Positions 15,175 to 43,795 of a DNA stretch of 64,000 bases are shown piece by piece; position 1 is the stretch's first letter, and each line of letters starts with the position of its first letter. Both the position numbers and the translations under genes were made by a program. The notes under the pieces are model-generated. The model had not been told where the DNA came from, did no database searches, and worked only from the letters and a program-made list of their open reading frames with translations. This DNA is from Hydractinia symbiolongicarpus (lineage: Eukaryota > Cnidaria > Hydrozoa > Anthoathecata > Hydractiniidae): assembly GCF_029227915.1 (NCBI RefSeq), contig NC_079887.1, positions 7,068,001 through 7,132,000 of the forward strand. The letters run 5' to 3'.

Positions 15175-17255
15175 TTAATTCACAAAATCATCTGAGTCCC
15201 TTCTCGTTATAACATCAAAATAGTGCTTTTTTAGGTTGTGTTTAAAACTGTTTGTAGTACTAGATCTTTTAAGACCCTCAGGAAGAGTATTCCATAAGGA
15301 GGGTCCAAGGTAGGAAAGACACTGTTGACCTTGGGATGTTTTTACACAAGATTGTTCAAGCCTCTGGAATGATGAACGAGTCGAAGCTGTTCTATGACTT
15401 GATGGAATAAATACATCAGACATGTACAGAGGACATTTTTTCTGAAAAAATTTATATGCATGATTGTTTACGCATACTTTAAACCTTTCGCCAACTGGTA
15501 GCCAATTTATTTCCTTAAAATCCGTAGCACCTACATGTGATCTGCTACTTTTTTGTAAACAGAAGCGAACACATTTGTTTTGAGCAACCTGGAGCTTCTT
15601 TTTTAAAACTTTTGTCAGGTTTGGATACCACACAGTACTGGCATAGTCAAAATGTGGTTGAATTAAAGAGTTACAAAGAAGTCGTCGCAGATCCTTGTTC
15701 AAAAATGAGCTTTGACAATAAAGAAATTTAATTTTACCATTATTTTTGTTAATCACATGTAAGGCCATTGACTCACCAGACAACGATTGGTCAAAGATGC
15801 AACCAAGATATTCAACTTTCGTATGCTGCTTGATTTCTACTCCATTGCAGGAAATATTAAGTTTTTCTGCTTTCTTAATTTTTCCCCTGGAGGCAAAAAG
15901 AATAGACTTGTTTTATCTTCACCAAAGTGTATGCTGAGTTTGTTGTCCACAAACCAATCACATAAATTACTGAAGTCTGTATTAAGAGCATTTTCCATCT
16001 CAGTTATGTCTTTGTGTTGAAATAAGAGACATGAATCATCTGCGTAGAGAAAAAGATCACATTGTACTAAAGCTTGTGGCATATCGTTTACATAAAGTAA
16101 GAACAGAAGTGGACCCAAGATAGAACCTTGGGGAACACCACATTCCAGTTTACCTGGATTAGATGATAAGTTATCTATTGACACACAAAATGTTCTGTTT
16201 GCAAGGTAAGACCTGAACCAAAGAATTACTTCATTTGAAAATCCAAGAGTTCCTAATCTTTCCAAAAATATGGAGTGGTTGATAGTATCGAAAGCTTTTT
16301 GTAGGTCAATGAGGATCATACCAGACAGCAAGCCTGCATCAAAACCTTTTGAAATTTTGTCATGTATATATGATAGACAAAAATCTGTTGAATGACAGCT
16401 TCTAAAGCCAGACTGAAATTTAAATAATATATTGTTTTCGTCTAAGAAAGCTTGTGTTTGGTTATGGACCACTCTTTCAATAATTTTAGAAAAAAGAGGA
16501 AGCAAAGATATAGGGCGGTAATTCTTTGGATCAGTTCTTGATCCCTTCTTATATAGTGGCTTAAGTTCAGCTATCTTACATTCACTAGGGAAAGATGACA
16601 GTGAGATAGAAAGATTACATAATTGAGTTATTGGTCTGCAGAGAACATCAGCACCATCCTTCAAGAAAATTCCAGATATAGTATCAAGTCCTGGTGCTTT
16701 TGTTGTACTAGTATCATTCAGCAAATTCAGCACATCTTCTTCTAAGACTTGCTGAAAATTGAATATCTTGTTTCCAATGTTTAGCGATTTGTAATATGAG
16801 ATGACAGCATTTATCCCAAATCTATTTGAGGGCTTAGGAAGATTTTGAAGCAGCCCATCTGCTAGACCAGAGAAAAAGTTCTTAAATATCTCTAGTTTTG
16901 ATTTTGTATCAAAATGTAAGGCATCCTCATCCTTTAGACAGTAGTTCGGATCTGACTTCTTTGAGTTGTCAAGTCCCATAGACTTTAGAGTCTTCCATAG
17001 TTCCTTAGGCTTGCCTGTGTTTTCTGTTATTTTGTTTTTATAGTATTCTTTTTTCTTTTTATTGATCAAATTTTGCACATTACTTTTTGCTTCATTCCAG
17101 AGGTCAGAATCAATTTGTAATTTTGACTTCTTAAACTTTTTAAAAAGTTTATCTCTAGTAGCAATCTTGTCTGCAATCTCACCATCAAACCATTCCTGGG
17201 AGTTGCATTTAATTCTGGCCTCTTTAGTAGGTGCTAAAGTATCTATTACTGACAT
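15175..17255 (-). pseudogene. LINE C reverse transcriptase half of ORF2
   Basis: The 15837-17255 frame holds NYRPISLLPLFSKIIERVVH, LIDLQKAFDTINHSIFLERL, GVPQGSILGPLLFLLYVND and the catalytic LFLYADDSCLLF. A frameshift near 15840-15900 moves the reading to 15175-15783, the C-terminal part with HFDYASTVWYPNL and GPSLWNTLP. Another frameshift at 17255, in an A-run where the stop TAA overlaps ATG, separates it from the APE half. Catalytic motifs are intact, so decay is recent. Confidence 0.8.
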
Positions 17256-18463
17256 TAGTTTTTCAAAAAATCAGAGTAGGCCAGATCAATGTCCGTGAAC
17301 TCATTATAATTTGGAATGTTTGTATCCCTTAGGAGACCCTGATACTGTTCCTTTGTGTAGTTTTTAAAAGATCGAAATTTGATATGTTTGTGGGTATTAA
17401 ACTTGACTTTTTTGACTTTTCTGGTGCAGAAAATCATTTGGTGATCTGATAGTCCAACATTTAAAACTCCACTTTGAGAAACTTTACCAACACAATTTGT
17501 TAAAAAGTGGTCAATAACTGTTGCAGTAGCACAAGTTACCCTTGTAGGCTCAACAATCAATTGTTTAAGGCCATAAAGCGAACAAAATTCTACATATTGC
17601 TTTTGCAATCCAGAGACATGATCACTCTTAAGTGCTGTCTTATTCATTTTAAAAATACTTCTACCATTACAAAGAGTATTGATATTAAAGTCTCCCAAGA
17701 GATAGAATTCTTTCTCATCAAAATCTAATGTAGTAAATTCATCTGAAATATTATTGACAAAATTATTTTGATCTGGTGGTCTGTAAAACACTCCAACAGT
17801 GAAAGGCTTTGTTTTAGGAAATAAAACATCAAACATGACACATTCCAAATTTTCTGAAAGTCGCTTATGAGAATTGTAACAAATATTATTTCTAATAAAG
17901 CAAGCAACACCTCCTCCATGCCTGTTTCTGTCACATCTAAGGAGGTTATAGCCTTCAATAGATACCTCAGAATCTGTTACAGTATTATCTAGTTTAGATT
18001 CTGTTATACCAATAATAGCTATTTTAGTTGAGAACGCTATTGCCCTAAGTTCATCAATTTTAGGTAAAAGCGAATTAATGTTGACATGAGCCATATGAAA
18101 CCCTCGCTTCTTGAACACGTTCCAGTCCTCATTCACAGTTGTCATATCCACAGGAGAGCCAGGGTTTAGACTTATGTCACCAGAAAGAAGAATCAATGAA
18201 CAAAGATAGTTTGTCTGGTTTTTCCTGCTTAAAACAAGAAAAGACAACATATAGTACTTGATGTTAGTTTCTAAGTTCTTATAAGTAATTTCGTTACAAA
18301 GAGCTACAGATTCAGGCACGAAGAAAGATGATTTGTTACAACGCTCAAGTTTGGAGTATTTACAAACTTCATTGTGATAACTATGTACAACAAGTGTAAC
18401 TATGGCAATTTGAAAGAAACAACCAGCTGATGCAAGCAATAAGTTTCTCTTTCTACAGCTCAT
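17255..18463 (-). CDS. LINE C APE endonuclease half with 2A-like motif
   Basis: This 402-aa frame starts with a hydrophobic segment (LLLASAGCFFQIAIVTLVV). It then has the 2A-like LILLSGDISLNPGS at 18156-18195, then the endonuclease with HMAHVNINSLLPKIDEL, IIGITESKLD, HGGGVACFIR, FYLLGDFNIN and LSDHQMIF. In functional 2A peptides the break falls between G and P of NPGP; here Ser replaces Pro, so separation is doubtful. It ends at a stop overlapping the RT frame. Confidence 0.75.
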   Translation of the reverse strand: MSCRKRNLLLASAGCFFQIAIVTLVVHSYHNEVCKYSKLERCNKSSFFVPESVALCNEITYKNLETNIKYYMLSFLVLSRKNQTNYLCSLILLSGDISLNPGSPVDMTTVNEDWNVFKKRGFHMAHVNINSLLPKIDELRAIAFSTKIAIIGITESKLDNTVTDSEVSIEGYNLLRCDRNRHGGGVACFIRNNICYNSHKRLSENLECVMFDVLFPKTKPFTVGVFYRPPDQNNFVNNISDEFTTLDFDEKEFYLLGDFNINTLCNGRSIFKMNKTALKSDHVSGLQKQYVEFCSLYGLKQLIVEPTRVTCATATVIDHFLTNCVGKVSQSGVLNVGLSDHQMIFCTRKVKKVKFNTHKHIKFRSFKNYTKEQYQGLLRDTNIPNYNEFTDIDLAYSDFLKN

Positions 18464-26745: not shown

Positions 26746-28077
26746 CTAATAGTTTCGCATGGTAATATCAGTATGTGCGATTTTGGTATTATTGTTAATT
26801 ATCATATGATCGATCAATGTTGCGCTTAAAGGAGTCGTCCTGGTTGGCTTTGATACTATCTGTTTAAGGTTGAATGCAGATAAAATATTGTTGTACTGTC
26901 TTACTTGGCAACATTCTGGTTTGAGAAGATTTATGTTTATGTCCCCTGTTATAAGTAGCAGGCCATCCCATGTTGTTTGGATATAAGTTATCAAATCTTC
27001 AAATTTAGTTAACCAGTCAGAAAAGGAGATGATTCTTTCCGAGCGGTATATGACCCCAAGAAGTAGTTTACTATGCTTGTTTCGGCCATCTACCTCGATC
27101 CATATATGCTCTAAATTTTCGTACATATCATTAATATCCTTTCGAATGCGATATTTGATCAAACTGTTCACATAAATTCCAACACCCCCTCCTCGAATTT
27201 GGTCTCTATTCACATATTCCATTGAGTAACCAGGTATACGGACGTATTCCAATAAATTAGCATTATTTTTTAGCCATGTTTCGGATAAGCAAACAATGTC
27301 GAATGGGTGGTCATCCAATAATACCAGTAAATCGTTAAAATTAGATGTCATCGATTGTGTTTTTATGTGCAGTACTCTCAATTTTTGATAATGTTCATGC
27401 AATGCGTGTTGATGACTGCTGTATGTTGCACCTGAAATAGTTGATGAAATAGTTGAATTTAAATCATTCTCTCGCGCAAACGGCATTAATAAGTGTGTAC
27501 AGTCAGTACATGTCCACTTTACCGGAATACAATTCATTATGGAATGTGTCAAGTTGGTATCGGCACATTTTGCATGAGTTCGATTAAAACACATTTCACA
27601 GGCGAGCTGCTTTTGATTTCGTCTGATAGTTGCTCTACATTTAATGCACTTAGTTGCTTGGGGTTTGGGCCCTGGGTTGGTTTCCACGTCGCCACTTTGC
27701 AAAATAATATTAAATGTAGCACACGTATTGTTGTAATAGGAGACTCTTGCTTTACCTCTTTTAATAACGTAACTATAGCTTCTGTCACCTTTTACAATCG
27801 TTCCATTTATTTCAATGGTCTCAATGCTATCGTTAAAATCAATACATAAAGTAATTAGTGATGTTATTAATATTACGGCATAAGACATTGTGGTTACCAT
27901 GGTGATATAGAGTGTTGATAAGAAGTTTTGCAAATTGTTGCAATTTGCCGGGACGTGTAATACCCAAAAACGTTTAAATTTTCTGCATATAAACCAACTA
28001 ATCCAAAACAATCTTTGTATAAGCAATAAAATTACTTCGGAATGTATAAGAGTCGCAATTTTCGTCGATAGCCACAA
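26746..28077 (-). CDS. LINE E ORF: hydrophobic leader, 2A, PHD finger, APE
   Basis: This 443-aa frame has three parts. Residues 1-128 are hydrophobic segments, including TMSYAVILITSLITLCIDF. The canonical 2A signature SGDVETNPGP follows at residues 128-137 (27667-27693). Then comes a PHD-type Cys/His cluster (CIKCRATIRRNQKQLACEMC, CTDC) and an APE endonuclease with SETWLKNN, GGGVGIYV, YRSER and LLLITGDININLL. 2A sequences cause ribosomes to skip a peptide bond before the last Pro, so the leader and enzyme could be separate products. The final SDH block lies beyond a frameshift after 26746. Confidence 0.75.
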   Translation of the reverse strand: MWLSTKIATLIHSEVILLLIQRLFWISWFICRKFKRFWVLHVPANCNNLQNFLSTLYITMVTTMSYAVILITSLITLCIDFNDSIETIEINGTIVKGDRSYSYVIKRGKARVSYYNNTCATFNIILQSGDVETNPGPKPQATKCIKCRATIRRNQKQLACEMCFNRTHAKCADTNLTHSIMNCIPVKWTCTDCTHLLMPFARENDLNSTISSTISGATYSSHQHALHEHYQKLRVLHIKTQSMTSNFNDLLVLLDDHPFDIVCLSETWLKNNANLLEYVRIPGYSMEYVNRDQIRGGGVGIYVNSLIKYRIRKDINDMYENLEHIWIEVDGRNKHSKLLLGVIYRSERIISFSDWLTKFEDLITYIQTTWDGLLLITGDININLLKPECCQVRQYNNILSAFNLKQIVSKPTRTTPLSATLIDHMIINNNTKIAHTDITMRNY

Positions 28078-28612: not shown

Positions 28613-28628
28613 TAGAGAGTTATATAGT

Positions 28629-28737
28629 TGAAAAAGGTTTACAATACAGCAAGCTGCACTGAAGTATCTTGTCTACAGGGACGGTGGATGTAAATAAAAT
28701 TGGGATTAGGCTCCCAGAAGAAGGTGCTGAATACACT
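28629..28737 (-). repeat. 109-bp direct repeat flanking the HERO-like element, copy 1
   Basis: Matches 33987-34095 at 108 of 109 positions by eye. Either it is the 3' end of the LINE, with a second truncated copy attached upstream, or it is a long target duplication. The complete 3' LTR lacks it, which argues for the first explanation. Confidence 0.85.
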
Positions 28738-29379
28738 TTCTTGCTTATTACAAGCATGAGTACTGTCCAACTTGGACCTATAACTATTCACTGAGAAAAT
28801 CTTAAAGAGAAAAAACAATCCTTCAATCACAAACAATACGACACAAGACAGATCTAACAACATAAACGGACTGGTTACAGAACAAACACAAATGGAAAAA
28901 ATGTATATGTCAAAAATATATAATATAAAAAAAGAATTATATAAAACCCTCCTGTGCGCCAGAACTTGTGACTCTGGCTGTAGCTTTCCACATGTGTTAC
29001 AGGGCCCCAACACTCAGCCTTACACAGGAGGTTGTCATGACTGGACCAGCCTGTACATATTTTGACTAAGGACAGCAGGGTTGTCAAGCCTGAAGACCAA
29101 GTTAGTAAACTTGGGCACCTTACTGAACTGGGGTAAAAAGTGGGGTCGTTACACCCAAAGACAAGCTGAAAGCAAACCCCCTTGCTAAGCTTCTTTTAAG
29201 TTACCAGAGAAGAGTGAGCTGAACTCTTTACCCTCTGGGTATTGACGGCAAACTGGTTCGAATGAACTAGCTGGGGTAATATAAAACCGCTCGGATTTAC
29301 ATTTTCCTCCCCCATGACCCTGGAAGTACAGGTTTTATAAACGTAATGATAAATGTATAAGAAAGAAAGAAAAAGCGGA
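28738..29379 (-). other. 3' UTR of the HERO-like LINE
   Basis: Non-coding downstream region of the retrotransposon ORF. It contains the 'gtggggtcgttacacccaaagacaag' unit also seen near 23504-23648. It also contains a 'tgtgcgccagaacttgtgactctggctgtagc' segment whose relative occurs at 50030-50112 in opposite orientation. A structured 3' UTR is expected for target-primed reverse transcription. Confidence 0.6.
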
Positions 29380-32300
29380 TCAACAGCGAACGTAACAAAG
29401 AATATAACATGAATTGTTGTTGAGAATAGGTGGAGAGCATTTGCAAACCGCTCTATCATTGCAGTGGTACCAAGAATTTGTGGCAGGATCCTTAACATAA
29501 GCCCAATAATGACCTGCGGTTAATGTACAGGAGTGATTAATTGTTGCTAACAATGAGTAGTTCTGATTAAACATTGTGTCCGTATCACTGACGAGAGGTA
29601 GTTGCAGGAGAGAGTCACGTAAAGAAACACATTCAACAACTCTGTTGTCTTTTACCAGATGTTCACCATGTTTTAAAAACCTTTTAAGATGCAGGAATAA
29701 GATTTCACTACTCCTGCTGATTTGCGTTTCTCTAGTACTCTCTCTATGTGCAAAGCATTGCGAAAACCACTTGTTTCCATCAGTTAGAATTTCCGGTTCT
29801 AAAAATTTGCTGACACAAGATTGGATTTTAGATGTCATTGGCAGTGTTAAAATGTCCTGCATTTCGACATTTACCGAGGTGCACAGGCAGGTGTTACAGC
29901 TTACGGACATTGAGATTTCAGTTGAGATTTTATCTGCAGCAATCGGGGAAAATCCCTTAAGGGCGTCCAAAACCACAAACAAAATCTCTGCTACATCTTG
30001 CTGAGTATTAAATTGGAAGTCCAGTTTCCCATCAGAGTGCATTTGACGTTCAAGGGCCCAGAGAAAATTTGAAGGGTCAACAGGTGACAATGATTGCTTC
30101 AGCTTCGCCATGTTAAGCGAAATAGACCTCGCAATAGGTGATAAATGAAACGATTCTGACCCACTCTGGCACCAGAGTGTTGGAATGGTACTTAATACTT
30201 GCAAAATGGCGTTGGCGTAACAAGTGTTGCCTTTGTTTAAAAAACCGATGTTTTTATAGACACTAATTGGTTGGGTGTCATTTTTATTTTGGCTAACCTT
30301 TTTAGATGGCCCCTTTCGGCGAGATGAAACACCCTTGGTCTCCACAATGGGCAAAGCCTGCTTGGATTTGGGTAATTGCATTAAGGAGTCAGTTGACCAA
30401 ACATTGGATTCACGTGCCAGCCAAATACAAAAAGAAGACCTCATACTGATTTTACCGAGATCATTTGCAGTGGAATAAGCAAGTTTGTTGGTGAAACCCA
30501 TTCTTTTTAAACAGGCAGTGGTGGTTCTTGCACAATATCCTCTTGCTCCTACTTCCACTGCGAAGAAATCAACTTGCCAGCCATTAACCATAATCACATT
30601 CATTAAACAGGAATATTTGGCAACTTTTGTGGAGTGCCAAGCATTCATGTTTTCCTCACATGGGCAAGTGAGTTCTACAATAATAACGCGCTTAAGGTCA
30701 TTTGAATATAACACAAGGTCCGGTTTAAGCTCAGAAATGGCAATATGGCTAGGAAACACATAGTTCGAGTGTGTGTCAGCAACAATCTTCCAATCTTTGG
30801 TAAGGTGCAGTATACCTGACACTTTAGATTTTGTATGTGCCTTTGACCCGGCTCTCAGAAAGGTTATTTTTTGACAATTTTTAGGAGGTTCAGAAGGAAG
30901 CTCAAAAATGAACTTTTTCAAAGTTTCTACCAAATGGGTAAGTACAGAATCGTGTCTAAAGGTATATCTACCCTGGGAAAGAGCAGTTTTACAAGCACCA
31001 AGAATGTGAGCAGAAGTGCAAATTTCTTTGTGACATAGGAAACATGATGGTTCTGTATTTATTTTCCACCTCCTTAGGTTACTTGGTGATGGCAGAACAT
31101 CGTAAGTGGATTGCAGGCAGAAAGATAAGAGATTAGGAGGAGTTGCTAGGATGTTCTTCCATGAAAGATCAAACTTTACGTAGTTCTCCCATCTTGTCCA
31201 TTGGCCCTGCACCTGAAGTTGCAGTGCCTTAGATAGATAGCTTTCCTCGTCAATCTCAGCCGATGTTTTTGCGATTAACTTTCTGTACTTGTGAGTGGTT
31301 TTTGGTGGTATTACTTCCACTTTACAAATGCCAAGACCGGTTCGTCCACGCTGTACAGGACCCCTTATGGTCTTGTACTTTAATTCACCCTCAGCTATGT
31401 TAACTGCATCGCTCACCTTCCAAGAACCTGCCTTTAAAGATGGATCGAGTGTTGACAGAATCGGATCTTTGGAGTGACGCAAAAGTAGGTGGCCGCTAAT
31501 CTTTGCGGATTTTAAAATAGAAGTGAGGCTCTTAATGGGCAGAGGGCAAGGAGAGGAGTCAGCATATAGGGAAATGTTTGTGATGGAACGGTGTAAGTTC
31601 AGCCATTTTCGTATGAACACTGAAACCTTTTGCTCTAGGCGCCCAGCAACAGACATCGAGACCTCGTATATTAACAGTGGCCACTGAATTCGCGGGATCA
31701 AAAGATGTTGCAAGATCCAAAGTTTTTGCGCTCCAGTGTATAAGGACTTATTAATGACACCAAGCCCTTCTATCAGCTTTTCCTCCAATTCGTTGATGGA
31801 CTTCCTGTCTGAGATAGAACAATCAATAATCCGGCCTAAAAATCGCACTGGCGAGGCATGAATAGATGGGATATACTGTGAGAAATCAATGTCGTTTTCA
31901 GGGCTACTTACACTAAAAGGGGTGCTATTGATAGATCTTCCCTTGATGATCACAAAACTACGGGATTTTTCAGCGCGAAATGTCATATTGGCCCAACTTA
32001 GAGCTGTGGTGCACCTGTTAAGGAGTACTTGTGTTCCAGCAACAGAAGAAGACATGATGTTTATGTCGTCCATAAAAGCCCTTATTAAAGGTAAGGATAC
32101 TCTGTTAGAGGTGATGTAGCATGACACAGATGTTGCCAGCGTATACTCCAAAATAACATTTATGCCTGATAAAAACAAGACGATAGACAGGGTGCAGCCA
32201 GCGAAGATGCCCCTGAAGTGCTGGTGCCAATTGCTTGGAGCAGATTTGGAGAATGATTTGCTGTACAGCCCAGAATAGTAACCCTTTACAATGGCAATCC

Positions 32301-33636
32301 AACTAGGAGATATACCATACCTTTCCAAAGCAAAAAAGATTAATCTGTGCGGTATTGAGGGATACGCACTTGCGATATCCAACCAAATGGTGGCAAGATC
32401 AGTTCTTGCAGAGCGTGCATCTTTTAAAGCTGCCCAGATTGACGACATGTGTTCCCAACAGCCAGGAACATTCGCCATGCACCCCTTTTGAACAGACGTG
32501 TTAATAAACTTATTGTTATGGATGACATGTGTTTCTAGTCGCCTTATACTAAAAAATAATTTTCCTTCGACATTTAGGAGGGCTATAGGTCGAAAATCTT
32601 TTAGGTTAGATGGTACAGGAGTTTTGGATTTGGGAATGTAAATTTCTTTGGCATGACGCCATTGAAGAGGCACAACACAATTTTTTAAACAACACTTAAA
32701 TACATTAAACAAGAAGGATGAAATTTTCGTACATTTTTTGTACACTTTGTAAGATATGCCATTTAGCCCAGGAGCTGAGGCGTTCCTACGCGTATATAAA
32801 ACACTTGCGAAATCAGAAAATTTGAAAGATGTGGCTGAGAAAGCTTTCTTGATCTGCGGAGGTGGTGGAAGACCTGGAAGAAGGGGAAGAGAAGAGTCGT
32901 GAAAATTATCAGATAAGCTAGATAATTTATGGTTGTCCAGAACGGACTGTTCAACACAAAGACGAATATCTGATTTAGGGTTAAGCAGGTCCTTTCCTGC
33001 TTTGTAGGGATCATTCCTAAAAACCTTTTGGGCGTTCTTAAAGCTCCACTTTCTTCTTCTTCGTTTCTCACCTCGACGCATCACCCTTATTTTTATTCGA
33101 ACTTGTTGCAACAGTTCTTGCAAGGCAGTTAGTTCCTCCTTGATGGTTGATGAGGCAATCTGCGCTAACAGAACATTTTTCTCCTTAACCAGATTAATGG
33201 AACGTATTGTACGCCTGTTAATACTGGCAATGTTTTTTGTTTTATTTGAGGAGCGGCAACCAAATATTTTTGAAGCCTCTTCGTAAATTAAAGTTTCGAG
33301 TGTTTTAACTTTCTCAGAAATGGATAGATTGGTACAAGCCTTTAGCTTGCTATGCACAGCACTGTCTAAGTCACTCCAACGCTTATCATTCATCTTACCC
33401 CATAGAATGGGGGCTTTCTCATCGAGGTTCTGAAGTTTGTTTTTTTCCGTGTGACACAATTTACTTTTGTGGGATGAAACCGAAGTAGAGATTGTGATCT
33501 TAAGCTTTTCAGCACCACTGAGAGAACAAACATCCTCCAAAACAACTTTACAGCTTTTCATCAAGTGCTTTTGGAGTACTGTATCATTTTGTTTATTGCA
33601 ATGATTCTTTTCGAAGTTGGGTATAAAAGAAGTCAT
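29380..33636 (-). CDS. HERO-like LINE polyprotein: RT, CCHC, restriction-like endonuclease and USP deubiquitinase
   Basis: One uninterrupted 1418-aa frame. Residues 1-260 are basic and helical. The RT has FRPIALLNVEGKLFF, LATIWLDIASAYPSIPH, GIFAGCTLS and catalytic FMDD (Asp523-524). A knuckle C-x2-C-x8-H-x4-C starts at Cys865. The endonuclease has KPD (Asp973), then a 14-residue gap to Glu in VIIVELTCP, then a KVAKY Lys, the PD-(D/E)XK pattern of R2/HERO elements. A linker near 1040-1130 leads to a USP domain: NKGNTCYANAILQVL (Cys1139), QQDVAEILFVVLDAL, a Cys-rich finger, LFLHLKRF, GHYWAYVKD (His1376) and WYHCND (Asn1393/Asp1394). USP enzymes remove ubiquitin from proteins. All catalytic residues of the three enzymes appear present. 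There is no N-terminal zinc finger. Confidence 0.85.
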   Translation of the reverse strand: MTSFIPNFEKNHCNKQNDTVLQKHLMKSCKVVLEDVCSLSGAEKLKITISTSVSSHKSKLCHTEKNKLQNLDEKAPILWGKMNDKRWSDLDSAVHSKLKACTNLSISEKVKTLETLIYEEASKIFGCRSSNKTKNIASINRRTIRSINLVKEKNVLLAQIASSTIKEELTALQELLQQVRIKIRVMRRGEKRRRRKWSFKNAQKVFRNDPYKAGKDLLNPKSDIRLCVEQSVLDNHKLSSLSDNFHDSSLPLLPGLPPPPQIKKAFSATSFKFSDFASVLYTRRNASAPGLNGISYKVYKKCTKISSFLFNVFKCCLKNCVVPLQWRHAKEIYIPKSKTPVPSNLKDFRPIALLNVEGKLFFSIRRLETHVIHNNKFINTSVQKGCMANVPGCWEHMSSIWAALKDARSARTDLATIWLDIASAYPSIPHRLIFFALERYGISPSWIAIVKGYYSGLYSKSFSKSAPSNWHQHFRGIFAGCTLSIVLFLSGINVILEYTLATSVSCYITSNRVSLPLIRAFMDDINIMSSSVAGTQVLLNRCTTALSWANMTFRAEKSRSFVIIKGRSINSTPFSVSSPENDIDFSQYIPSIHASPVRFLGRIIDCSISDRKSINELEEKLIEGLGVINKSLYTGAQKLWILQHLLIPRIQWPLLIYEVSMSVAGRLEQKVSVFIRKWLNLHRSITNISLYADSSPCPLPIKSLTSILKSAKISGHLLLRHSKDPILSTLDPSLKAGSWKVSDAVNIAEGELKYKTIRGPVQRGRTGLGICKVEVIPPKTTHKYRKLIAKTSAEIDEESYLSKALQLQVQGQWTRWENYVKFDLSWKNILATPPNLLSFCLQSTYDVLPSPSNLRRWKINTEPSCFLCHKEICTSAHILGACKTALSQGRYTFRHDSVLTHLVETLKKFIFELPSEPPKNCQKITFLRAGSKAHTKSKVSGILHLTKDWKIVADTHSNYVFPSHIAISELKPDLVLYSNDLKRVIIVELTCPCEENMNAWHSTKVAKYSCLMNVIMVNGWQVDFFAVEVGARGYCARTTTACLKRMGFTNKLAYSTANDLGKISMRSSFCIWLARESNVWSTDSLMQLPKSKQALPIVETKGVSSRRKGPSKKVSQNKNDTQPISVYKNIGFLNKGNTCYANAILQVLSTIPTLWCQSGSESFHLSPIARSISLNMAKLKQSLSPVDPSNFLWALERQMHSDGKLDFQFNTQQDVAEILFVVLDALKGFSPIAADKISTEISMSVSCNTCLCTSVNVEMQDILTLPMTSKIQSCVSKFLEPEILTDGNKWFSQCFAHRESTRETQISRSSEILFLHLKRFLKHGEHLVKDNRVVECVSLRDSLLQLPLVSDTDTMFNQNYSLLATINHSCTLTAGHYWAYVKDPATNSWYHCNDRAVCKCSPPILNNNSCYILCYVRC

Positions 33637-33882
33637 AACTATAGGGGTTGATTATGCACAGGATAAGATTGTCAGCCCTGCGTTGCCTGGCGCACAGGGT
33701 AAGGCTATAGTTTTCACAGCGGCACCAAGACTGTGAGGATTCGCTAGCGACTAATTAACCCATTAGCCATTCATCCGTTGACGCGTACCGTGGATTAGGG
33801 TCCGGTTATAATAAAATCAAAATCAGTATACACAATTGAGTCCTTTAAAACGGTCATGTCGATCCAGTTGCAAACAGTTTAC

Positions 33883-33958
33883 CGGTCTTTCCCAGTGTCA
33901 CTAGTCTCTCCCAGTGTCCCTAGTCTTTCCCAGTGTCACTAGTCTTTCCCAGTGTCAG
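33883..33958 (-). repeat. Four tandem 19-bp units in the LINE 5' UTR
   Basis: On the minus strand the unit is GACACTGGGAAAGACTAGT, repeated four times with a few changes, close to the 5' end of the element. Repeated 5' UTR modules in LINEs often carry promoter activity; that is inference here. An exact single unit appears at 49530-49548. Confidence 0.75.
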
Positions 33959-33986
33959 GTTGAAACCATTGCGGTCAACAATAAGA

Positions 33987-34095
33987 TGAAAAAGGTTTAC
34001 AATACAGCAAGCTGCACTGAAGTATCTTGTCTACAGGGACGGTGGATGTAAATAAAATTGGGATTAGGCTTCCAGAAGAAGGTGCTGAATACACT
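33987..34095 (-). repeat. 109-bp direct repeat flanking the HERO-like element, copy 2
   Basis: Second copy of the 28629-28737 segment with one C/T difference. It lies between the LINE 5' end and the resumed Gypsy LTR at 34096. Confidence 0.85.
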
Positions 34096-34193: not shown

Positions 34194-34227
34194 TTATTGA
34201 ATTGATATCGCTTGGTTGTTCAACAGG

Positions 34228-37200
34228 ATGCCTGCTGTCGAATGCCCAATTGAGTCTTGTGACTACGTCACACCTGACCTGGATGCCACAATTGTTGCCG
34301 CCCTCATCACAGCACATGCTACTGTCCATACCAGCTCACCAGATAAACAAGGTGCTGCTAAAGTGGAACGAGTCAAGAGGCCATCAATATCATCCGCCGG
34401 TACCAGCGAAGAATGGCAATATTTCACGACCAGATGGGCCGAATATGTTGCAGCAACCAAAGTTACTGGAAAAGAGAGAGTCCTCCAGCTGCTAAAATGC
34501 TGTGATGATGAACTTCGCAAAGACCTTACCAGGTCCACAGTAGGACCCCTTTCTGATAAATCTGAAACAGTTGTGCTAGCTGCTATAAAGTCATTGGCAG
34601 TAAGAGATGAGAACACTATGATTGCCAGAGTCACCCTGAATAATTCCCACCAAGATCGAGATGAACCAATACGGTCCTTCTGCGCCCGTCTGAGAGGACA
34701 AGCAAATGTTTGCAAGTACGTTATAGATTGTCCAAACTGTGACCATGAGGTCAACTACACTGAGCAAATCCTCCGAGATGTCATTTGCAGAGGCCTAGAA
34801 GACTCAGACATTCAACTTGACTTGCTTGGACAAACGAACCAGGACATGACCCTTGACGAGGTATTACACTTCATAGAAGCAAGAGAAACTGGTAAGCGCT
34901 CTGCATCCAAACTTCTCCAACAACACGAAAACAACGCGATCCGCAGCAGTTACAAAAACGCCGGATCAACCGATTCAACTCCATGCACATACTGTGGAAA
35001 GAAGGGCCATGGTGCCAAAGCTATTGCCAAACAAAGAAAGACTACATGCCCAGCATACAACCACATATGTAGTCACTGCAATCATCCACATCACTACGAG
35101 AGCGTGTGTAGAAGCAAAGACAAACAAAAACGAAACAAGATGGAACCAGAGAATCAAGGTGCTGTTTTCGACCAAGAATCTACATTCAATAAGCTCTGCG
35201 CTATTCAACAACCAAGGAAGCCGACGAGCCACCACATCTACAACAAGTCTTCAAAGAGTTGGGAGAAACGCAGATCCAGCTCTCAACCATACCTCGACCT
35301 CAACGTCTCAGTCAATGACGAGAGTTACAGCCAACTTGGATACCAAGCCATCAGAAACCACCCAGAGAAGACCATCACCATCCCTGCAATGGCTGATACC
35401 GGTTGTCAAAGTTGTTTGATTGGATTCAAGTGCGTACAGAAACTTGGACTGACCAAAGCAGATCTTCTTCCCGTATCAATGGAGATGCGAGCAGCTAACG
35501 GCAATCCCATCAAAGTACTTGGTGCCATCATCCTGAAAATCAACAGTCCAACTAACTCGAACAACGCCCAGGAAACACGACAACTTGTGTATGTCACCAA
35601 CGAAACCAACCAATTCTTCATCAGCAAAGGTGCTTGCATTGACTTGGGTATCATCCCCTCCAGCTTCCCAGCCATCGCCAACAAATATCATCAAGTTGCA
35701 TCAGCTGACATTCTCAAAACAGCGACAGATCACCTCAATCATCCCGAACAATCTTCAACACCAACAACAATTGGCTGCGACTGCCCAAAACGTGAACCTC
35801 CACCAGCACTTCCTACTGGTCTTCCATGTGCCGCAACAGACGAGAATCGGCAGAAACTACAGGACTTCCTACTAAATCACTACAAGTCCAGTGCCTTCAA
35901 TACGTGTGAGCACCAACCGCTGCCGATGATGACTGGACCCCCACTGTCCCTTCAGATCGACGAATCCGCAGAACCTACAGCTCATCACACTCCAATCCCT
36001 GTTCCGTTTCACTGGCAAGAGAAAGTCAAAGCTGATCTGGACCGCGATGTTCTGCTTGGAGTGCTCGAAAAAGTGCCAATAGGAGAACCTGTGACCTGGT
36101 GTCATCGCATGGTAGTATGCGCCAAGAAAAATGGAGAACCTCGTCGTACCGTAGACTTCCAAGCCCTGAACGCCTGTGCAACGAGAGAAACTCATCATAC
36201 TCAGTCTCCATTCCATCAAGTACGTTCGGTGCCCCACAACGTCAAGAAGACTGTCACAGATGCCTGGAATGGATACCACAGTGTCCCCCTCTGTGAAGAA
36301 GACAAGCACCTCACAACCTTCATCACCCCTTGGGGTCGTTACCGGTATCGCACTGCACCACAAGGCTACATTTCATCTGGTGACGGCTACACAAGACGAT
36401 TTGATGAAATAGCCTGTGACTTCCCAAACAAAATCAAAGTCGTAGATGATTCTCTGCTATGGGCCGATACCTTGGAGGAGAGCTTTCATCAAACTGCACA
36501 GTGGCTTGACCTTTGCGCTCGTAATGGTATCATCGTGAACCCTGATAAATTTGAATTTGGTGCCGACACCGTCAAGTTTGCTGGCTTCGAGATCACGCCT
36601 ACATCCGTCCGTCCTAACGAGAAGATCATCAGAGCAATCATGGACTTTCCGACACCAAAGAATCTCACAGACGTACGTTCATGGTTTGGTCTTGTGAATC
36701 AAGTCACATACACTTTCAGCATGACATCGTTCATGGAACCGTTCCGCTCACTACTGAAGCCCACGATGAAGTTCCAATGGAATGAGGAATTGCAAGCAAT
36801 CTTCGACAAATCAAAACGTCAAATTGCGGCAGAGATTGAGAATGGCGTCCGTATATTCGACAAACAGAAACCAACGTGCCTCGCCACCGATTGGTCGAAA
36901 TCTGGCATTGGTTACTGGCTGTTCCAGAAACATTGCAACTGCCCTGACATCAAACCTTTCTGCTGCAACACTGGTTGGAAGGTGGTACTTGTTGGTAGTC
37001 GGTTCACTCATGCTGCTGAATCACGTTACGCTCCCATCGAAGGTGAAGCCCTCGCGGTAGCCGATGCACTTGACAAGGCCAGACACTTTGTATTGGGCTG
37101 CGACGATCTTATCGTTGCAGTGGACCACAAGCCCTTGCTTGGTATCTTCTCCGATCGCTCACTCGATAGGATCTCCAATGGCCGCCTACGAAACCTGAAA

Positions 37201-39105
37201 GAGAAGACTCTTCGATACCGTTTCAAGATATGCTACATCCCAGGCCGAAAGAATTGCGTCTCAGACACCATGTCTAGACATCCAAGTGGACCCAAGTCTC
37301 CTGACAAGATGCACCTACCCGATGACGTGTGCTCTATCGACTCTACTGAGCTGTTACCACCGAAAGCCCATCAAGTTCTTCCGTCGAAAGTATTCAATCA
37401 GACAACTTCAACAGTCGCAGACGAAGAGGGACTCCTGAACCAATCCGTTGCTGCTATCACCACTGCATGCAATTCAGTGACATGGGATATGATAAAGGAA
37501 GCCACTTCCAGCGACAACAACATGGTCCAACTCACAGAACTCATCGAGTCTGGGTTCATTCAGCCTTTAGATGAACTCCCAGAAGCGCTCCGCCCATATC
37601 ACCAACATCGATCTGACTTATCAACACTGGATGGTGTCGTTATCTTCAAAGACAGGATCGTCGTCCCACCCAGCCTTCGAAGCATTGTCCTTGATAACCT
37701 TCACGCGGCACATCAAGGCACCAATTCAATGATTGCTCATGCTGAATCTGCGGTGTTCTGGCCTGGTATCACAAAGTCGATCAAAGAACGAAGATCTAGA
37801 TGTCGCCAGTGTGACATAATGGCACCTTCTCAGCCAAGCATGCCCCCAACTACACCAGCAACACCAGAATACCCATTCCAATACCTGTGTTCCGACTTCT
37901 TCTACTACATGGGGAAGTACTACCTTGTATCCGTTGACCGATACTCTAATTGGCCAATCGTGGACCATGCTAAAGATGGAAGCGCTGGATTTATCAACAG
38001 TTTACGTCGCTCATTCGTCACATATGGCATCCCTGAGGAGCTTGCGTCAGATGGTGGCCCTGAATTCACCTCCAGGTCAACAGAATCTTTCCTGAAATCA
38101 TGGCGAGTCCGTCAACGTATATCTTCAACAGCCTTCCCTCACAGCAACAGCCGTGCTGAAATTGGTGTCAAGACTGTCAAACGCATGATCGTTGGCAATA
38201 CAGATGCTAGTGGGAACCTCGACACTGATGCATTCCAAAAGGCTATGCTTGTCTACAGAAATACACCACAACCAGACACGCACATATCACCTGCTATGTG
38301 CATCTTTGGCCATCCCATCCGATCACCAGTACCAATCCTACCTGGAAAATATTGCCCACACCCCACCTGGCAAGGCACACTCCAGAAGCGCGAAGAAGCC
38401 CTACGACTACGTCACCTCAAGACTGCTGAACGACTTGCCATCGGGACCCGTCCCCTACCACCACTGAAGGTCGGAGATCATGTACGTATCCAGAATCAAG
38501 TTGGTCAAAATCCGCGCAAATGGGACAGGACTGGAACAATCATTGAAGTAAGACAGTTCGACCAATATGCTGTCAGAGTGGATGGATCAGGGAGAGTTAC
38601 TCTTCGCAACAGGAAGTTCCTGAGACGCTTCACCCCTGTCATGCCTCAGAACTCTTCCTTCCAACTCCCATCACCCCTCACTTCACAACCATCCATAACC
38701 CATACTCATACTTCACATCCCACACTTACATATCCATCACAAATACGTCCTGTCCCCCCAAACCACCCCTCATATTCGGGACTGGACGAACCTGCTGTCC
38801 CTGTGGCAGTGAAGAACGATGACCTCCCAACATTAACTATACCACCGATGAATGTTACAACACCAAGTACCCAACAGATTGACGCACAACGATCTGACGT
38901 CCAACCATCACCATCGGTCATCCAACAATCAGCAGAGCGCACTCAATCAACACCATTACCGTCTAATGGTTCACCTTCAGGAGTTACAACGTACAATACT
39001 CCTCCACGCTCTGGTCAACATGCCCAATGCTCAACGCAACAACCCAGAAGATCTCAACGCATTAAAAGAGTCCCTGGGCACTTGAGTGACTATGTGCTGA
39101 AATAA
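34228..39105 (+). CDS. Gypsy Gag-Pol polyprotein in a single frame
   Basis: One open frame encodes all enzymes; residue numbers count from 34216, where the frame first opens. A Gag-like helical part is followed by a knuckle CSHCNHPHHYESVC and a diverged partner CTYCGKKGH. Protease has ADTGCQSCLIG (Asp about 394). RT has RRTVDFQALNA and VVDDSLLWA (Asp744-745), with VVDD instead of YxDD. RNase H has ATDWSKSGIGYW and VDHKPLLGI. Integrase has a His/Cys zinc region (CRQC), then CSDFFYYM, LASDGGPEF and HSNSRAEIGVKTVKR for D,D,E, then a GPY/F-like strand region. The tail is Pro/Ser/Thr-rich. No chromodomain is seen. ATG at 34228 is the first standard start. Intact, so probably recently active. Confidence 0.9.
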   Translation: MPAVECPIESCDYVTPDLDATIVAALITAHATVHTSSPDKQGAAKVERVKRPSISSAGTSEEWQYFTTRWAEYVAATKVTGKERVLQLLKCCDDELRKDLTRSTVGPLSDKSETVVLAAIKSLAVRDENTMIARVTLNNSHQDRDEPIRSFCARLRGQANVCKYVIDCPNCDHEVNYTEQILRDVICRGLEDSDIQLDLLGQTNQDMTLDEVLHFIEARETGKRSASKLLQQHENNAIRSSYKNAGSTDSTPCTYCGKKGHGAKAIAKQRKTTCPAYNHICSHCNHPHHYESVCRSKDKQKRNKMEPENQGAVFDQESTFNKLCAIQQPRKPTSHHIYNKSSKSWEKRRSSSQPYLDLNVSVNDESYSQLGYQAIRNHPEKTITIPAMADTGCQSCLIGFKCVQKLGLTKADLLPVSMEMRAANGNPIKVLGAIILKINSPTNSNNAQETRQLVYVTNETNQFFISKGACIDLGIIPSSFPAIANKYHQVASADILKTATDHLNHPEQSSTPTTIGCDCPKREPPPALPTGLPCAATDENRQKLQDFLLNHYKSSAFNTCEHQPLPMMTGPPLSLQIDESAEPTAHHTPIPVPFHWQEKVKADLDRDVLLGVLEKVPIGEPVTWCHRMVVCAKKNGEPRRTVDFQALNACATRETHHTQSPFHQVRSVPHNVKKTVTDAWNGYHSVPLCEEDKHLTTFITPWGRYRYRTAPQGYISSGDGYTRRFDEIACDFPNKIKVVDDSLLWADTLEESFHQTAQWLDLCARNGIIVNPDKFEFGADTVKFAGFEITPTSVRPNEKIIRAIMDFPTPKNLTDVRSWFGLVNQVTYTFSMTSFMEPFRSLLKPTMKFQWNEELQAIFDKSKRQIAAEIENGVRIFDKQKPTCLATDWSKSGIGYWLFQKHCNCPDIKPFCCNTGWKVVLVGSRFTHAAESRYAPIEGEALAVADALDKARHFVLGCDDLIVAVDHKPLLGIFSDRSLDRISNGRLRNLKEKTLRYRFKICYIPGRKNCVSDTMSRHPSGPKSPDKMHLPDDVCSIDSTELLPPKAHQVLPSKVFNQTTSTVADEEGLLNQSVAAITTACNSVTWDMIKEATSSDNNMVQLTELIESGFIQPLDELPEALRPYHQHRSDLSTLDGVVIFKDRIVVPPSLRSIVLDNLHAAHQGTNSMIAHAESAVFWPGITKSIKERRSRCRQCDIMAPSQPSMPPTTPATPEYPFQYLCSDFFYYMGKYYLVSVDRYSNWPIVDHAKDGSAGFINSLRRSFVTYGIPEELASDGGPEFTSRSTESFLKSWRVRQRISSTAFPHSNSRAEIGVKTVKRMIVGNTDASGNLDTDAFQKAMLVYRNTPQPDTHISPAMCIFGHPIRSPVPILPGKYCPHPTWQGTLQKREEALRLRHLKTAERLAIGTRPLPPLKVGDHVRIQNQVGQNPRKWDRTGTIIEVRQFDQYAVRVDGSGRVTLRNRKFLRRFTPVMPQNSSFQLPSPLTSQPSITHTHTSHPTLTYPSQIRPVPPNHPSYSGLDEPAVPVAVKNDDLPTLTIPPMNVTTPSTQQIDAQRSDVQPSPSVIQQSAERTQSTPLPSNGSPSGVTTYNTPPRSGQHAQCSTQQPRRSQRIKRVPGHLSDYVLK

Positions 39106-40525: not shown

Positions 40526-43500
40526 TTAGTAAGAGGAAACAAAGTACTTTTTCAGATCACTTCTAAGATTAAAATAATCAAGGGAGACAAATTTTCTAGT
40601 CATTAAAGACTGCAATTTATTCCAGGAATTAATGGCATTAAATCTAATTGAGTTTTTACCAAAAGAAATAGTATTAAAGGTAGGGAGATTGATCAAACCA
40701 ATTTTCTCTGCCCGAGTGCCTTGAGCATGGGTGAAGTCAACCGCAAATGTATTAAGGATAGAAGCAGGCAATTTTTCATGAAATAGTTTATGTAAAAATA
40801 GAATATTGTGACATTTGACAATATCAGAGAATTTGAGGAGCTCAAGATTACCATACAGGTGACTGGATGATGCTCTTCGAGATTCAAAAGACATGAGTCT
40901 AATAGCAAAATTTTGCAAAACAGTAATACGATTAACATCAAGACTGTTTGGCTGACCCCAAATTTGATTACAATATTGCAAGTGTGAATGAAAAATGGCA
41001 TAGTAAACTAGAATAAGAACATTTAAAGGCACAAAGTGACGAAGTTTAGCTAAAGCTCCATTGGCCCTCTTGAGCTTGGCAACAGTATCATTGATCTGAG
41101 ACTTCCAGCTTAAATCAGAATCTAATAGAACACCAAGATATTTAATACAATTACTAGGTATAAGCCTTTTACCATTGATAAAAAGCCTAAAATCGTAATT
41201 AAGAGGTTTCCGTGTATGTTTAAAAACAATGTACTCAGTCTTACTAGCATTAAGAGAAATTTTATTGGCATTGAGCCAATGGCAAAGAAGCTTGAGGTCA
41301 AAATTCATTTGTTTGGCCAGTTGTTTCAAAGATTTACTGAAGTTTAAGAGATTGGTGTCATCAGCAAAGTGATGCACCAAAGAAAAATTAATTGAACAAT
41401 GCAGGTCGTTAATATAAATTAAAAATAAAAGAGGTCCTAAAACAGAGCCCTGAGGGACACCATGCCTGATAAGATTACTAGTTGATATATTTCCATTGAT
41501 GGATACAAACTGTTGACGTCCTGTTAAGTAAGACTTAAATAGTGAGAGTGGGGTACCACGAATTCCATAGTGAAAAAGCTTTTTAAGCAAAATTTCATGA
41601 TCAACCGTATCAAAAGCCTTTTGAAGATCAATGAACACTCCACATGCATAATTTCCTTTATCAAGAGCATCCATAATTTTTTGAGAGATGTTCAGAAGTG
41701 TTTGAGAAGTCGAGTAATTTTTCCTAAAGCCAAATTGATGCTTGTAGAGGGCGTTGTTTGCTTCGAGAAAACCATACACTCGTTTGTATATGATTTTTTC
41801 ATATATTTTATCAATATTTGAGAGTAAGGATATAGGTCGGTAATTTGTTAATTCTAATTTGGACCCTTTTTTATAAATAGGGATGGTCTTGGCAGTTTTT
41901 AGGTTTGTAGGAAAAATACCAGTTGTGAAAGACAAATTAATAAGTTTTGAAAGTGGTATAGATAATTCAGATTTAACAAGAGTTAAAATATGGGCAGGAA
42001 TACTGAATGGCCCAGAAGATTTACCAGGGTCAAGGGAAGAAATGCAATGCAGAACTTCTAAATCATCAGTTGGTGAAAGAAACATCGAATTAGAAGTAGA
42101 ATTTTTTAGAAAAGAGGAGAAATGTTTTCGAGTGAACGGGATATTCATTCTGATGTTATCTGCAATTGAAGCAAAGTAATCATTAAAAGAATTAGCAATT
42201 GTCACTGGATCAGTTACAACAGAGTTATTAATGTTCATACAGGTGGGAGAAGCAGAAACAGAAGAACGAACAGAAATAATATTTTTAACCCCTTTCCAAA
42301 TATTGCCAATATTTTTTTGGTTATTGCTAAAATATTTATTGAGGAAATTACTCTTACTCATTCTACATAGAGATACAATTTTGTTGCGGTACTTTTTAAA
42401 ACTCTCTAGCAAGGAAGACTTTAAAAGTGGATCTTTCTCTCTTAAAAAGCATTTATGCAGATGGTCTCTTTTGATTATTGAGGTAAGGATACCATTAGTA
42501 ATCCAAGGATTGGATTTTTTTTTTCTTTTTTTGTTGCATGTTTTTTTTAGAGGAGCATGATTGACCAATAGACTGTTGATACAATTGTAAAAATTGTTAA
42601 ACGATAAGTTGGGATCATCTACATTCAATTGTAGGATATCATCCCAATTTTTATTGTGAAGTTCGGTGAGAAAGTCATTGTGATGAAATTTCTTCCAATC
42701 ATGAACAAATATATCATCAGAGGTGTGCAAAGGATTGATTGCAGACAAGTTTTTTAAGACTAAGAACTGAGGGAAATGGTCAGATATTGAACTTATAATA
42801 TTACCAGACACAGTGTCCCACTTGGCTGAACTAAAATAAATATTATCAATAATCGTGCTAGAAACTTCAGTAACTCTTGTGGGAAGAATTATATGCGGGA
42901 GTAAGTTAAATTGCGAAGTAATATCGATGTAATCGGACACTTCTTTGACTGTTTCAGACTTTAGAAGGTCAATATTAAAGTCTCCAAGGAGGAAGATAGA
43001 CTTGTTATCTGAAGACGCTTTCTCAAGAAGAGGCAATAAAAAATGATTGTTGAACTCATCAACAGACATCGAGGGATGTCTGTAGATGCATCCAACAATC
43101 ATGTTTCTATCTTTGGCCCGTATAATTTCAATGAATTTAGATTCAAGCTCCTTGCTTTTATATGCAAGAGTATCCAGGTCGGGACGTTCAATAAATTGCA
43201 AGTGATTAGGGATGTACAAAAGAGCACCACCCTTTTCACCTTCAGTAGGTGTGTGCGTGAAGGAATAACCCGATAGATCGCAGTTAATAGGTGGGATTTT
43301 AGTCTGGAATTTGGTCTCAGTGATACCAATAACACTGAAGTCATGCCCAAGTTGACCTAACAGAATCTTTAGTTCATCAATATGTTTAGACAGAGAGGCG
43401 ATATTCATATGAAAAAGGGAGAATTTATCAGAATTAACTTGAAGGGCAGAGAATTCAATTGGATCGTAATATTTGCAGTTGACACCACCCATGGTTTCAG

Positions 43501-43795
43501 GATGGGGGACCTCGTTGATTTCAATAGAGTTGAGCTGGGAGAGAAACCTTTTCATTTCCATAGAGGAAAGACTCTTGTCATAAACTAAGGGGGGAGTTGT
43601 TGAGCCAAAGGGGAGAATTTTGTTGATACATTTACAACAGAACCAAAGTTCATCAGAGTTTTGGAGAGATATATAATCATCAGCATTGAGACCATTGCAT
43701 TTAATATGAATCCAGAATTTACAAATATCACACTGAATAGCCTTATGATTTGAATTAACAGACTTTCCACAGACACCACACGGAAAATTTATCAT
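40526..43795 (-). CDS. LINE D ORF2: PHD finger, APE endonuclease, reverse transcriptase
   Basis: 1089 aa, uninterrupted. The N-terminus is a PHD-type cluster CGVCGKSVN, CDICKFWIHIKCN and CCKC (residues about 6-55). APE has FHMNIASLSKHIDEL, IGITETKFQ, GGALLYIP, YRHPSM, FLLGDFNIDLL and SDHFPQFLV. RT has YRPISLLSNIDKIYEKIIY, FIDLQKAFDTVDHEILL, GVPQGSVLGPLLFLIYINDL and catalytic HHFADDTNLL (about residue 811). The end region is YAIFHSHLQYCNQIWG. All catalytic motifs are present, so this copy may be active. The PHD finger could bind chromatin or RNA; that is inference. Confidence 0.88.
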   Translation of the reverse strand: MINFPCGVCGKSVNSNHKAIQCDICKFWIHIKCNGLNADDYISLQNSDELWFCCKCINKILPFGSTTPPLVYDKSLSSMEMKRFLSQLNSIEINEVPHPETMGGVNCKYYDPIEFSALQVNSDKFSLFHMNIASLSKHIDELKILLGQLGHDFSVIGITETKFQTKIPPINCDLSGYSFTHTPTEGEKGGALLYIPNHLQFIERPDLDTLAYKSKELESKFIEIIRAKDRNMIVGCIYRHPSMSVDEFNNHFLLPLLEKASSDNKSIFLLGDFNIDLLKSETVKEVSDYIDITSQFNLLPHIILPTRVTEVSSTIIDNIYFSSAKWDTVSGNIISSISDHFPQFLVLKNLSAINPLHTSDDIFVHDWKKFHHNDFLTELHNKNWDDILQLNVDDPNLSFNNFYNCINSLLVNHAPLKKTCNKKRKKKSNPWITNGILTSIIKRDHLHKCFLREKDPLLKSSLLESFKKYRNKIVSLCRMSKSNFLNKYFSNNQKNIGNIWKGVKNIISVRSSVSASPTCMNINNSVVTDPVTIANSFNDYFASIADNIRMNIPFTRKHFSSFLKNSTSNSMFLSPTDDLEVLHCISSLDPGKSSGPFSIPAHILTLVKSELSIPLSKLINLSFTTGIFPTNLKTAKTIPIYKKGSKLELTNYRPISLLSNIDKIYEKIIYKRVYGFLEANNALYKHQFGFRKNYSTSQTLLNISQKIMDALDKGNYACGVFIDLQKAFDTVDHEILLKKLFHYGIRGTPLSLFKSYLTGRQQFVSINGNISTSNLIRHGVPQGSVLGPLLFLIYINDLHCSINFSLVHHFADDTNLLNFSKSLKQLAKQMNFDLKLLCHWLNANKISLNASKTEYIVFKHTRKPLNYDFRLFINGKRLIPSNCIKYLGVLLDSDLSWKSQINDTVAKLKRANGALAKLRHFVPLNVLILVYYAIFHSHLQYCNQIWGQPNSLDVNRITVLQNFAIRLMSFESRRASSSHLYGNLELLKFSDIVKCHNILFLHKLFHEKLPASILNTFAVDFTHAQGTRAEKIGLINLPTFNTISFGKNSIRFNAINSWNKLQSLMTRKFVSLDYFNLRSDLKKYFVSSY

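Follow-up and report, generated by a model that had tools for sequence, protein, structure and literature searches.

The 64,000-nucleotide stretch of Hydractinia symbiolongicarpus DNA analysed here (NC_079887.1, positions 7,068,001 to 7,132,000; hereafter the window) contains a young R2-type long interspersed element (LINE) with a restriction-like endonuclease (RLE), whose single polyprotein terminates in a ubiquitin-specific protease (USP) domain. The explanation that we consider best as a whole, and to which we give about an even chance of being right, is that this domain would act in cis to deubiquitinate the element's own ribonucleoprotein (RNP). The preliminary description of this DNA had proposed a LINE polyprotein into which a USP-type domain is built, an anatomy which is now supported by Pfam, by matches in the PDB, by an AlphaFold model and by fold matches. 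The open reading frame (ORF) and its parts are as follows:

29380..33636, minus strand: single ORF of 1418 codons, read from 33636 down to 29380 with an ATG start
31477..32787, minus strand: R2-type reverse transcriptase (RT), aa 284-720, with FMDD at 521-524 (Pfam RVT_1; R2 proteins in the PDB; fold match to R2Tg)
30991..31044, minus strand: CCHC zinc knuckle, C865, C868, H877 and C882 (each position 61/61 in aligned proteins)
30625..30723, minus strand: RLE motif, P972 D973 - E988 - K1004 (61/61, 61/61, 60/61 and 61/61; fold match to R2)
30256..30381, minus strand: fast-evolving linker, aa 1086-1127 (proportion of nonsynonymous differences, pN, 0.54 against locus L029)
29392..30249, minus strand: USP (peptidase C19) domain, aa 1130-1415, with N1134, C1139, H1376 and D1394 (Pfam, AlphaFold model, PDB matches, conservation)

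The frame is thus found where the preliminary description had placed it, on the minus strand and encoding 1418 aa. The profile search which had been suggested as a check returned a match to UCH/USP (PF00443) at E 3.3e-30 over residues 1130-1415, spanning positions 1-254 of the 254 of the profile, in addition to RVT_1 (PF00078) at E 3.1e-13 and a zf-RVT match below its cut-off; Pfam revealed no further module beside the USP in the ORF, and neither an integrase nor a Peptidase_C48 (Ulp1) match. All motifs named earlier could be located, namely FMDD, the knuckle (C865-C868-H877-C882), the P972-D973-X14-E988...K1004 signature and, within the USP, Cys1139, QQDV at 1212, LHLKRF at 1315, His1376 and Asp1394. 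The USP fold and the Cys/His/Asp triad, as judged from Pfam, the AlphaFold model, fold matches and conservation, assign the domain to peptidase C19. Sequence matches in the PDB were to R2 proteins over aa 284-715 and to USP8 and USP2 over aa 1240-1416; R2 proteins provided both the best PDB sequence match and the top fold match, and the fold match to R2 runs through the C-terminal part of R2, the endonuclease included.

The same domain order recurs well beyond this copy. A protein search with aa 880-1418 gave 81 matches, comprising RT/RLE elements (P0001-P0058), nearly all from ena/jgi/lgn contigs, and other USP proteins (P0059-P0081), the named ones being cellular. A search with P0053 (193 matches, the best 120 of which were listed) added, among the matches listed, more USP-bearing elements as well as USP-less relatives of Branchiostoma and fish, and one with P0048 (247 matches, the best 120 listed) added P0173-P0186. 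One relative, P0177, is LOC130628696 of H. symbiolongicarpus itself, annotated only as uncharacterized; a single scan of viral contigs with P0002 gave no match. In an alignment of 61 proteins, counting rows with a letter at the position, the RT DD pair is kept in 54/54, and in the USP Cys1139 is kept in 54/54, His1376 in 51/51, Asp1394 in 50/51, N1134 in 54/54 and D1214 of the GlnAsp box in 52/52.

The domain might nevertheless be a chance read-through or a passenger host exon without function, a reading for which it may be said that the USP evolves faster than the RT and that a clade without it exists. Divergent loci (L029-L041) were scanned as stop-to-stop segments with RT, RLE and USP profiles built in this analysis, and RLE and USP matches were found in 13/13, several with broken frames. 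Among them L029, on contig C1 and representing a second family, is open from stop to stop for 1422 codons and 55% identical over aa 29-1417 of the window protein. Eight of the 13 had been picked with a USP-containing query, so they could hardly be USP-less. The remaining five (L037-L041) were picked by a search with the RLE alone, which gave at least 154 matches, and in this unbiased set the USP follows the RLE in 5/5. The possibility raised in the preliminary description, that related copies all end at the endonuclease, therefore fails; with some 70 external proteins also showing the same domain order, and keeping the catalytic residues where these were tabulated, we consider chance read-through highly improbable.

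A tree of the RT-RLE region with 131 rows placed 97 on one side (SH-like approximate likelihood ratio test, SH-aLRT, 100) and 34 in an outgroup. Among the 97, the USP is present in 73 (four of them partial) and absent in 21, three rows being cut, and it occurs in 0/34 outgroup rows; this distribution implies at least six changes on the tree. In a set of 49 rows that includes the window it is present in 49/49. The 21 rows without it comprise 15 in one clade, P0107/P0108/P0110 and the single rows P0097, P0113 and P0118, of which P0113, stopping within the RLE profile, may be a cut row, and P0118 has a 493-residue tail with no USP match. In a careful tree of 48 selected rows the USP clade obtained 100/100, the domain being found on both sides of its basal split (11/11 and 10/14). 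Provided that the root is correctly placed, the most economical reading would be a gain at the base of the clade followed by later losses. Distances in RT-RLE and USP are correlated (r 0.86 over 66 rows, 0.88 over 43 deep-clade rows and 0.76 over 23 basal rows), with 0 of 2000 permutations as high in each of the three sets. At the level of sequence, these comparisons establish the fusion, its conservation and a long co-inheritance of the USP with the RT and endonuclease.

In the USP tree 54 element USPs, the window's included, form one clade (99) apart from 23 cellular USPs, the basal element groups not being resolved. As to whether all element USPs share one origin, the free tree splits them, with three changes, and a tree that keeps all 77 together scored 10.2 log units better than the free tree and is not rejected (approximately unbiased test, p 0.673); in a smaller USP tree the 18 main element USPs once more failed to form one clade, at weak supports. 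These trees permit, without showing it, that the main group arose once. Four USP-bearing proteins (P0174-P0176 and P0179) lie outside the main RT-RLE clade, P0174-P0176 with 100/100 by RT-RLE. The USPs of these three group with two insect USP8 proteins (SH-aLRT 82 for the join and 95 for the containing cellular set), and that of P0179 is not resolved in the USP tree. An independent capture of a USP8-like domain by another RT-RLE lineage is therefore probable, on three proteins and modest support. The window USP groups with P0005/P0006/P0008 (SH-aLRT 95) and its RT-RLE with P0002 (96/77), a conflict that may reflect exchange or noise. Overall, we lean, somewhat beyond even confidence, towards a history in which a major, ancient clade of RLE LINEs already had a USP when its basal split occurred and a USP8-like one was captured independently in one further RLE-LINE lineage or more, such that deubiquitination would be a recurrent and selected step of LINE retrotransposition, in parallel to the Ulp1 of NeSL elements.

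Since synonymous sites between the window family (A) and that of L029 (B) are saturated (synonymous differences, pS, of 0.75-0.87 against L029 outside the linker; for the window copy itself 0.77-0.80 in RT, knuckle-RLE and USP, and 0.61 in the linker), dN/dS between these families is not usable and pN alone was compared. The values of window versus L029 (RT 0.20, knuckle-RLE 0.28, USP 0.38, linker 0.54) indicate that the USP is constrained, less than the RT and more than the linker. The preliminary description had attributed the lack of stops to selection or youth, and both appear to apply: youth from the copies, most of them over 99% identical, constraint from the comparison between families.

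Ubiquitin pathways of the host are considered to hold retroelements in check. Under the explanation that we favour, the host would attach ubiquitin to the element protein as it sits on its own RNA and nicks chromatin for target-primed reverse transcription (TPRT); the USP, as an active deubiquitinase, would remove ubiquitin in cis from the polyprotein or RNP, and perhaps from immediate neighbours, and the RNP would thereby escape proteasomal or other ubiquitin-dependent removal until a copy is made. Deubiquitinase activity, and roles in protection from degradation or in chromatin, are what we infer, and escape from, or editing of, host ubiquitin marks may be part of how these elements spread. 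Several observations weigh against this explanation. The domain seems dispensable for some elements, given its absence from 21 of the 97 clade rows (some perhaps cut by contig ends), and it evolves faster than the RT (pN 0.38 against 0.20). Its dN/dS is 0.95 between two family-B copies, on 13 changes only, and, for the window copy against six siblings of family A, 0.27-0.82, on 3-4 changes each. The USP could also be specific for another modifier, USP18-ISG15 being among the fold matches of the model. Finally, the window copy is slightly damaged, its zinc ribbon included. In a comparison with six siblings, whose frames have 1421 codons, it alone is short of two residues in the RT, near 364, and of one in the USP, a Cys of the paired CxxC zinc ribbon of the fingers that is kept in 6/6 siblings; in addition it has Cys at 1370, where the six siblings have Gly. 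The finding is the architecture, not this single copy.

Other functions of the domain have to be weighed against self-protection of the RNP. The USP might act at the target on chromatin or repair factors (ubiquitinated histones, PCNA or FANCD2-like proteins), enabling TPRT or completion of the second strand. Its tethering to a DNA-nicking endonuclease would suit such a role, the USP1-FANCD2 structure is among the fold matches, as are many other USPs, and it has been put forward that transposon ubiquitin/SUMO proteases may act via DNA repair (PMC2836005). A position behind a flexible linker, however, suits self-protection equally, and Pfam shows no additional module beside the USP, so that we rate an action at the target as possible, if rather unlikely. 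Counter-defence in trans, whereby the USP would disarm a host antiviral, small-RNA or innate pathway reliant on ubiquitin or a ubiquitin-like modifier, could draw on the USP18-ISG15 fold match and on what appear to be two independent captures, but the domain is fused to a polyprotein that itself goes to the element RNA, and this we consider unlikely.

Self-cleaving proteases are common in retroelement polyproteins, and a USP behind a variable linker might likewise free itself or the RT-endonuclease, or release a ubiquitin-like fusion. USPs, however, cut after a ubiquitin fold. The absence of an LRLRGG-type motif from the 173 proteins examined speaks against self-cleavage at a ubiquitin tail, and in the element proteins that were scanned no ubiquitin-like domain exceeded its Pfam cut-off (APG12, at E 0.041, lies below it); a processing role is accordingly very doubtful. 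The fusion of RT and endonuclease to a conserved USP, which was apparently gained more than once, makes the notion of ubiquitin as a main brake on TPRT directly testable, and the host, Hydractinia, is a culturable model animal.

The RT, the CCHC knuckle and PD...E...K motif after it, and the dispersed 5'-truncated copies with no integrase assign the element to the RLE-type non-long-terminal-repeat retrotransposons, and the R2-like label given earlier is correct as far as RLE LINEs in general are concerned. To our knowledge, R2 elements have no USP. Like R2Bm, R2Tg and R2Pm, the element carries RT, thumb/linker, CCHC knuckle and RLE in one ORF, with a fold match over the whole core and a 3' end without poly-A. 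R2 sensu stricto targets 28S rDNA (PMC4640811), whereas the flanks of the window family are diverse in 14 copies and Rfam, searched at gathering threshold for 17 of the 20 loci, gave 0 matches, a result that equally holds no sign of the spliced-leader or U2 snRNA gene insertion of NeSL/Utopia. NeSL and one Utopia family are RLE LINEs recorded as carrying Ulp1, which is N-terminal in the nematode families (PMC4640811); the likeness lies in a ubiquitin/SUMO-class protease in some of them, and the difference in a C-terminal USP (C19) with no C48 match in the window element. One protein of the USP-less sister clade, P0184 (1598 aa), has an Ulp1 domain ahead of its RT (E 5.2e-26), a NeSL/Utopia-like architecture.

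Ginger1, Helitrons and Mutator elements are also recorded as carrying OTU or Ulp1 domains, together with one Trichomonas vaginalis protein joining transposase_11 to Peptidase C19, and it has been proposed that ubiquitin pathways serve transposition (PMC2836005); these share ubiquitin/SUMO-protease domains with the window element, yet they are DNA transposons with other protease folds, save for the one C19 protein. Cellular USPs (USP2, USP8, USP35, USP46 and others) have the same fold and catalytic residues as the window USP, which is only 19-29% identical to them in the rows listed. No LINE with a USP or deubiquitinase was found described in searches of open-licence papers aimed at one, Repbase and subscription papers being outside that search. 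A different C-terminal addition was seen in P0181 (1456 aa), an RLE LINE with a DarT-like domain (ssDNA thymidine ADP-ribosyltransferase; Pfam E 4.1e-23) after the endonuclease; this is one sequence, possibly a chimera, and its relative P0183 has no such match.

The element copy, with a direct repeat (R) of about 111 bp at both ends, is laid out as follows:

28622..34095, minus strand: element copy including R at both ends (oriented L009 1546-7019; blastn against 19 other fetched loci)
33985..34095, minus strand: upstream R, the 3' end of a preceding 5'-truncated copy (97% identical to the element 3' end)
33637..33984, minus strand: 5' untranslated region (UTR) between head-to-tail junction and ATG; its sequence shows four GACACTGGGAAAGACTAGT-like units of 19 bp
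28735..29379, minus strand: 3' UTR (blastn copy comparison)
28624..28734, minus strand: 3' copy of R, ending TTTTTCA without poly-A (copy comparison)

R represents the element's own 3' end, because seven 5'-truncated copies (L014, L018-L022 and L026) carry it at their 3' end alone, and its interpretation as a target-site duplication was rejected on the same observation. That R derives from an RNA-gene target was likewise rejected: with E values of up to 1 allowed, Rfam matched nothing in the window stretch, and no tRNA was found in 20/20 loci. A comparison of 14 copies for target-site duplications gave longest shared stretches of 4-8 nt, none convincing.

A search of the 480.9-Mb genome with aa 1013-1418 yielded at least 107 matches, of which 21 of the 107 reported covered the full query at 98-100% identity, seven of these with open frames of 1423-1426 codons. 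Twenty loci were fetched for comparison, that of the window among them; in long aligned pieces the copies share 98.7-99.7% identity with that of the window, with a constant 3' end (TTTTTCA, no poly-A), 5' truncation at many points and, in 14 copies, diverse insertion flanks. The 5' start is reached in 10/20 loci, and in 10/10 of these another copy's 3' fragment lies upstream of it in head-to-tail order, ranging from 111 bp (R alone, in the window copy) to at least about 1650 bp, longer in the siblings than in the window copy and reaching the locus edge in three. Such an arrangement points to template jumping or, alternatively, to read-through of a tandem transcript. Tandem copies arranged head to tail, repeating about every 5.3-5.4 kb, were also observed (L010/L011, L017/L023, L024/L027 and C13:23678939-23700860), and on C13 five RLE matches at 5.3-kb spacing belong to a family that is 70% identical and has short frames.

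Other frames in the window also point to mobile elements. Adjoining the element on the opposite strand is an open frame of 1629 aa (34216..39105, plus strand), which by its motifs we take to resemble a Gypsy-type gag-pol. A 443-aa frame (26746..28077, minus strand) with weak PHD/C1-like and sub-threshold apurinic endonuclease (APE) matches is probably a LINE fragment. At 15837..18463 (minus strand) an APE endonuclease frame and, after it, an RT frame constitute a LINE in two frames, and at 40526..43795 (minus strand) lies a LINE ORF of 1089 aa with a PHD finger, an RT and a sub-threshold Pfam match to an APE-type endonuclease.

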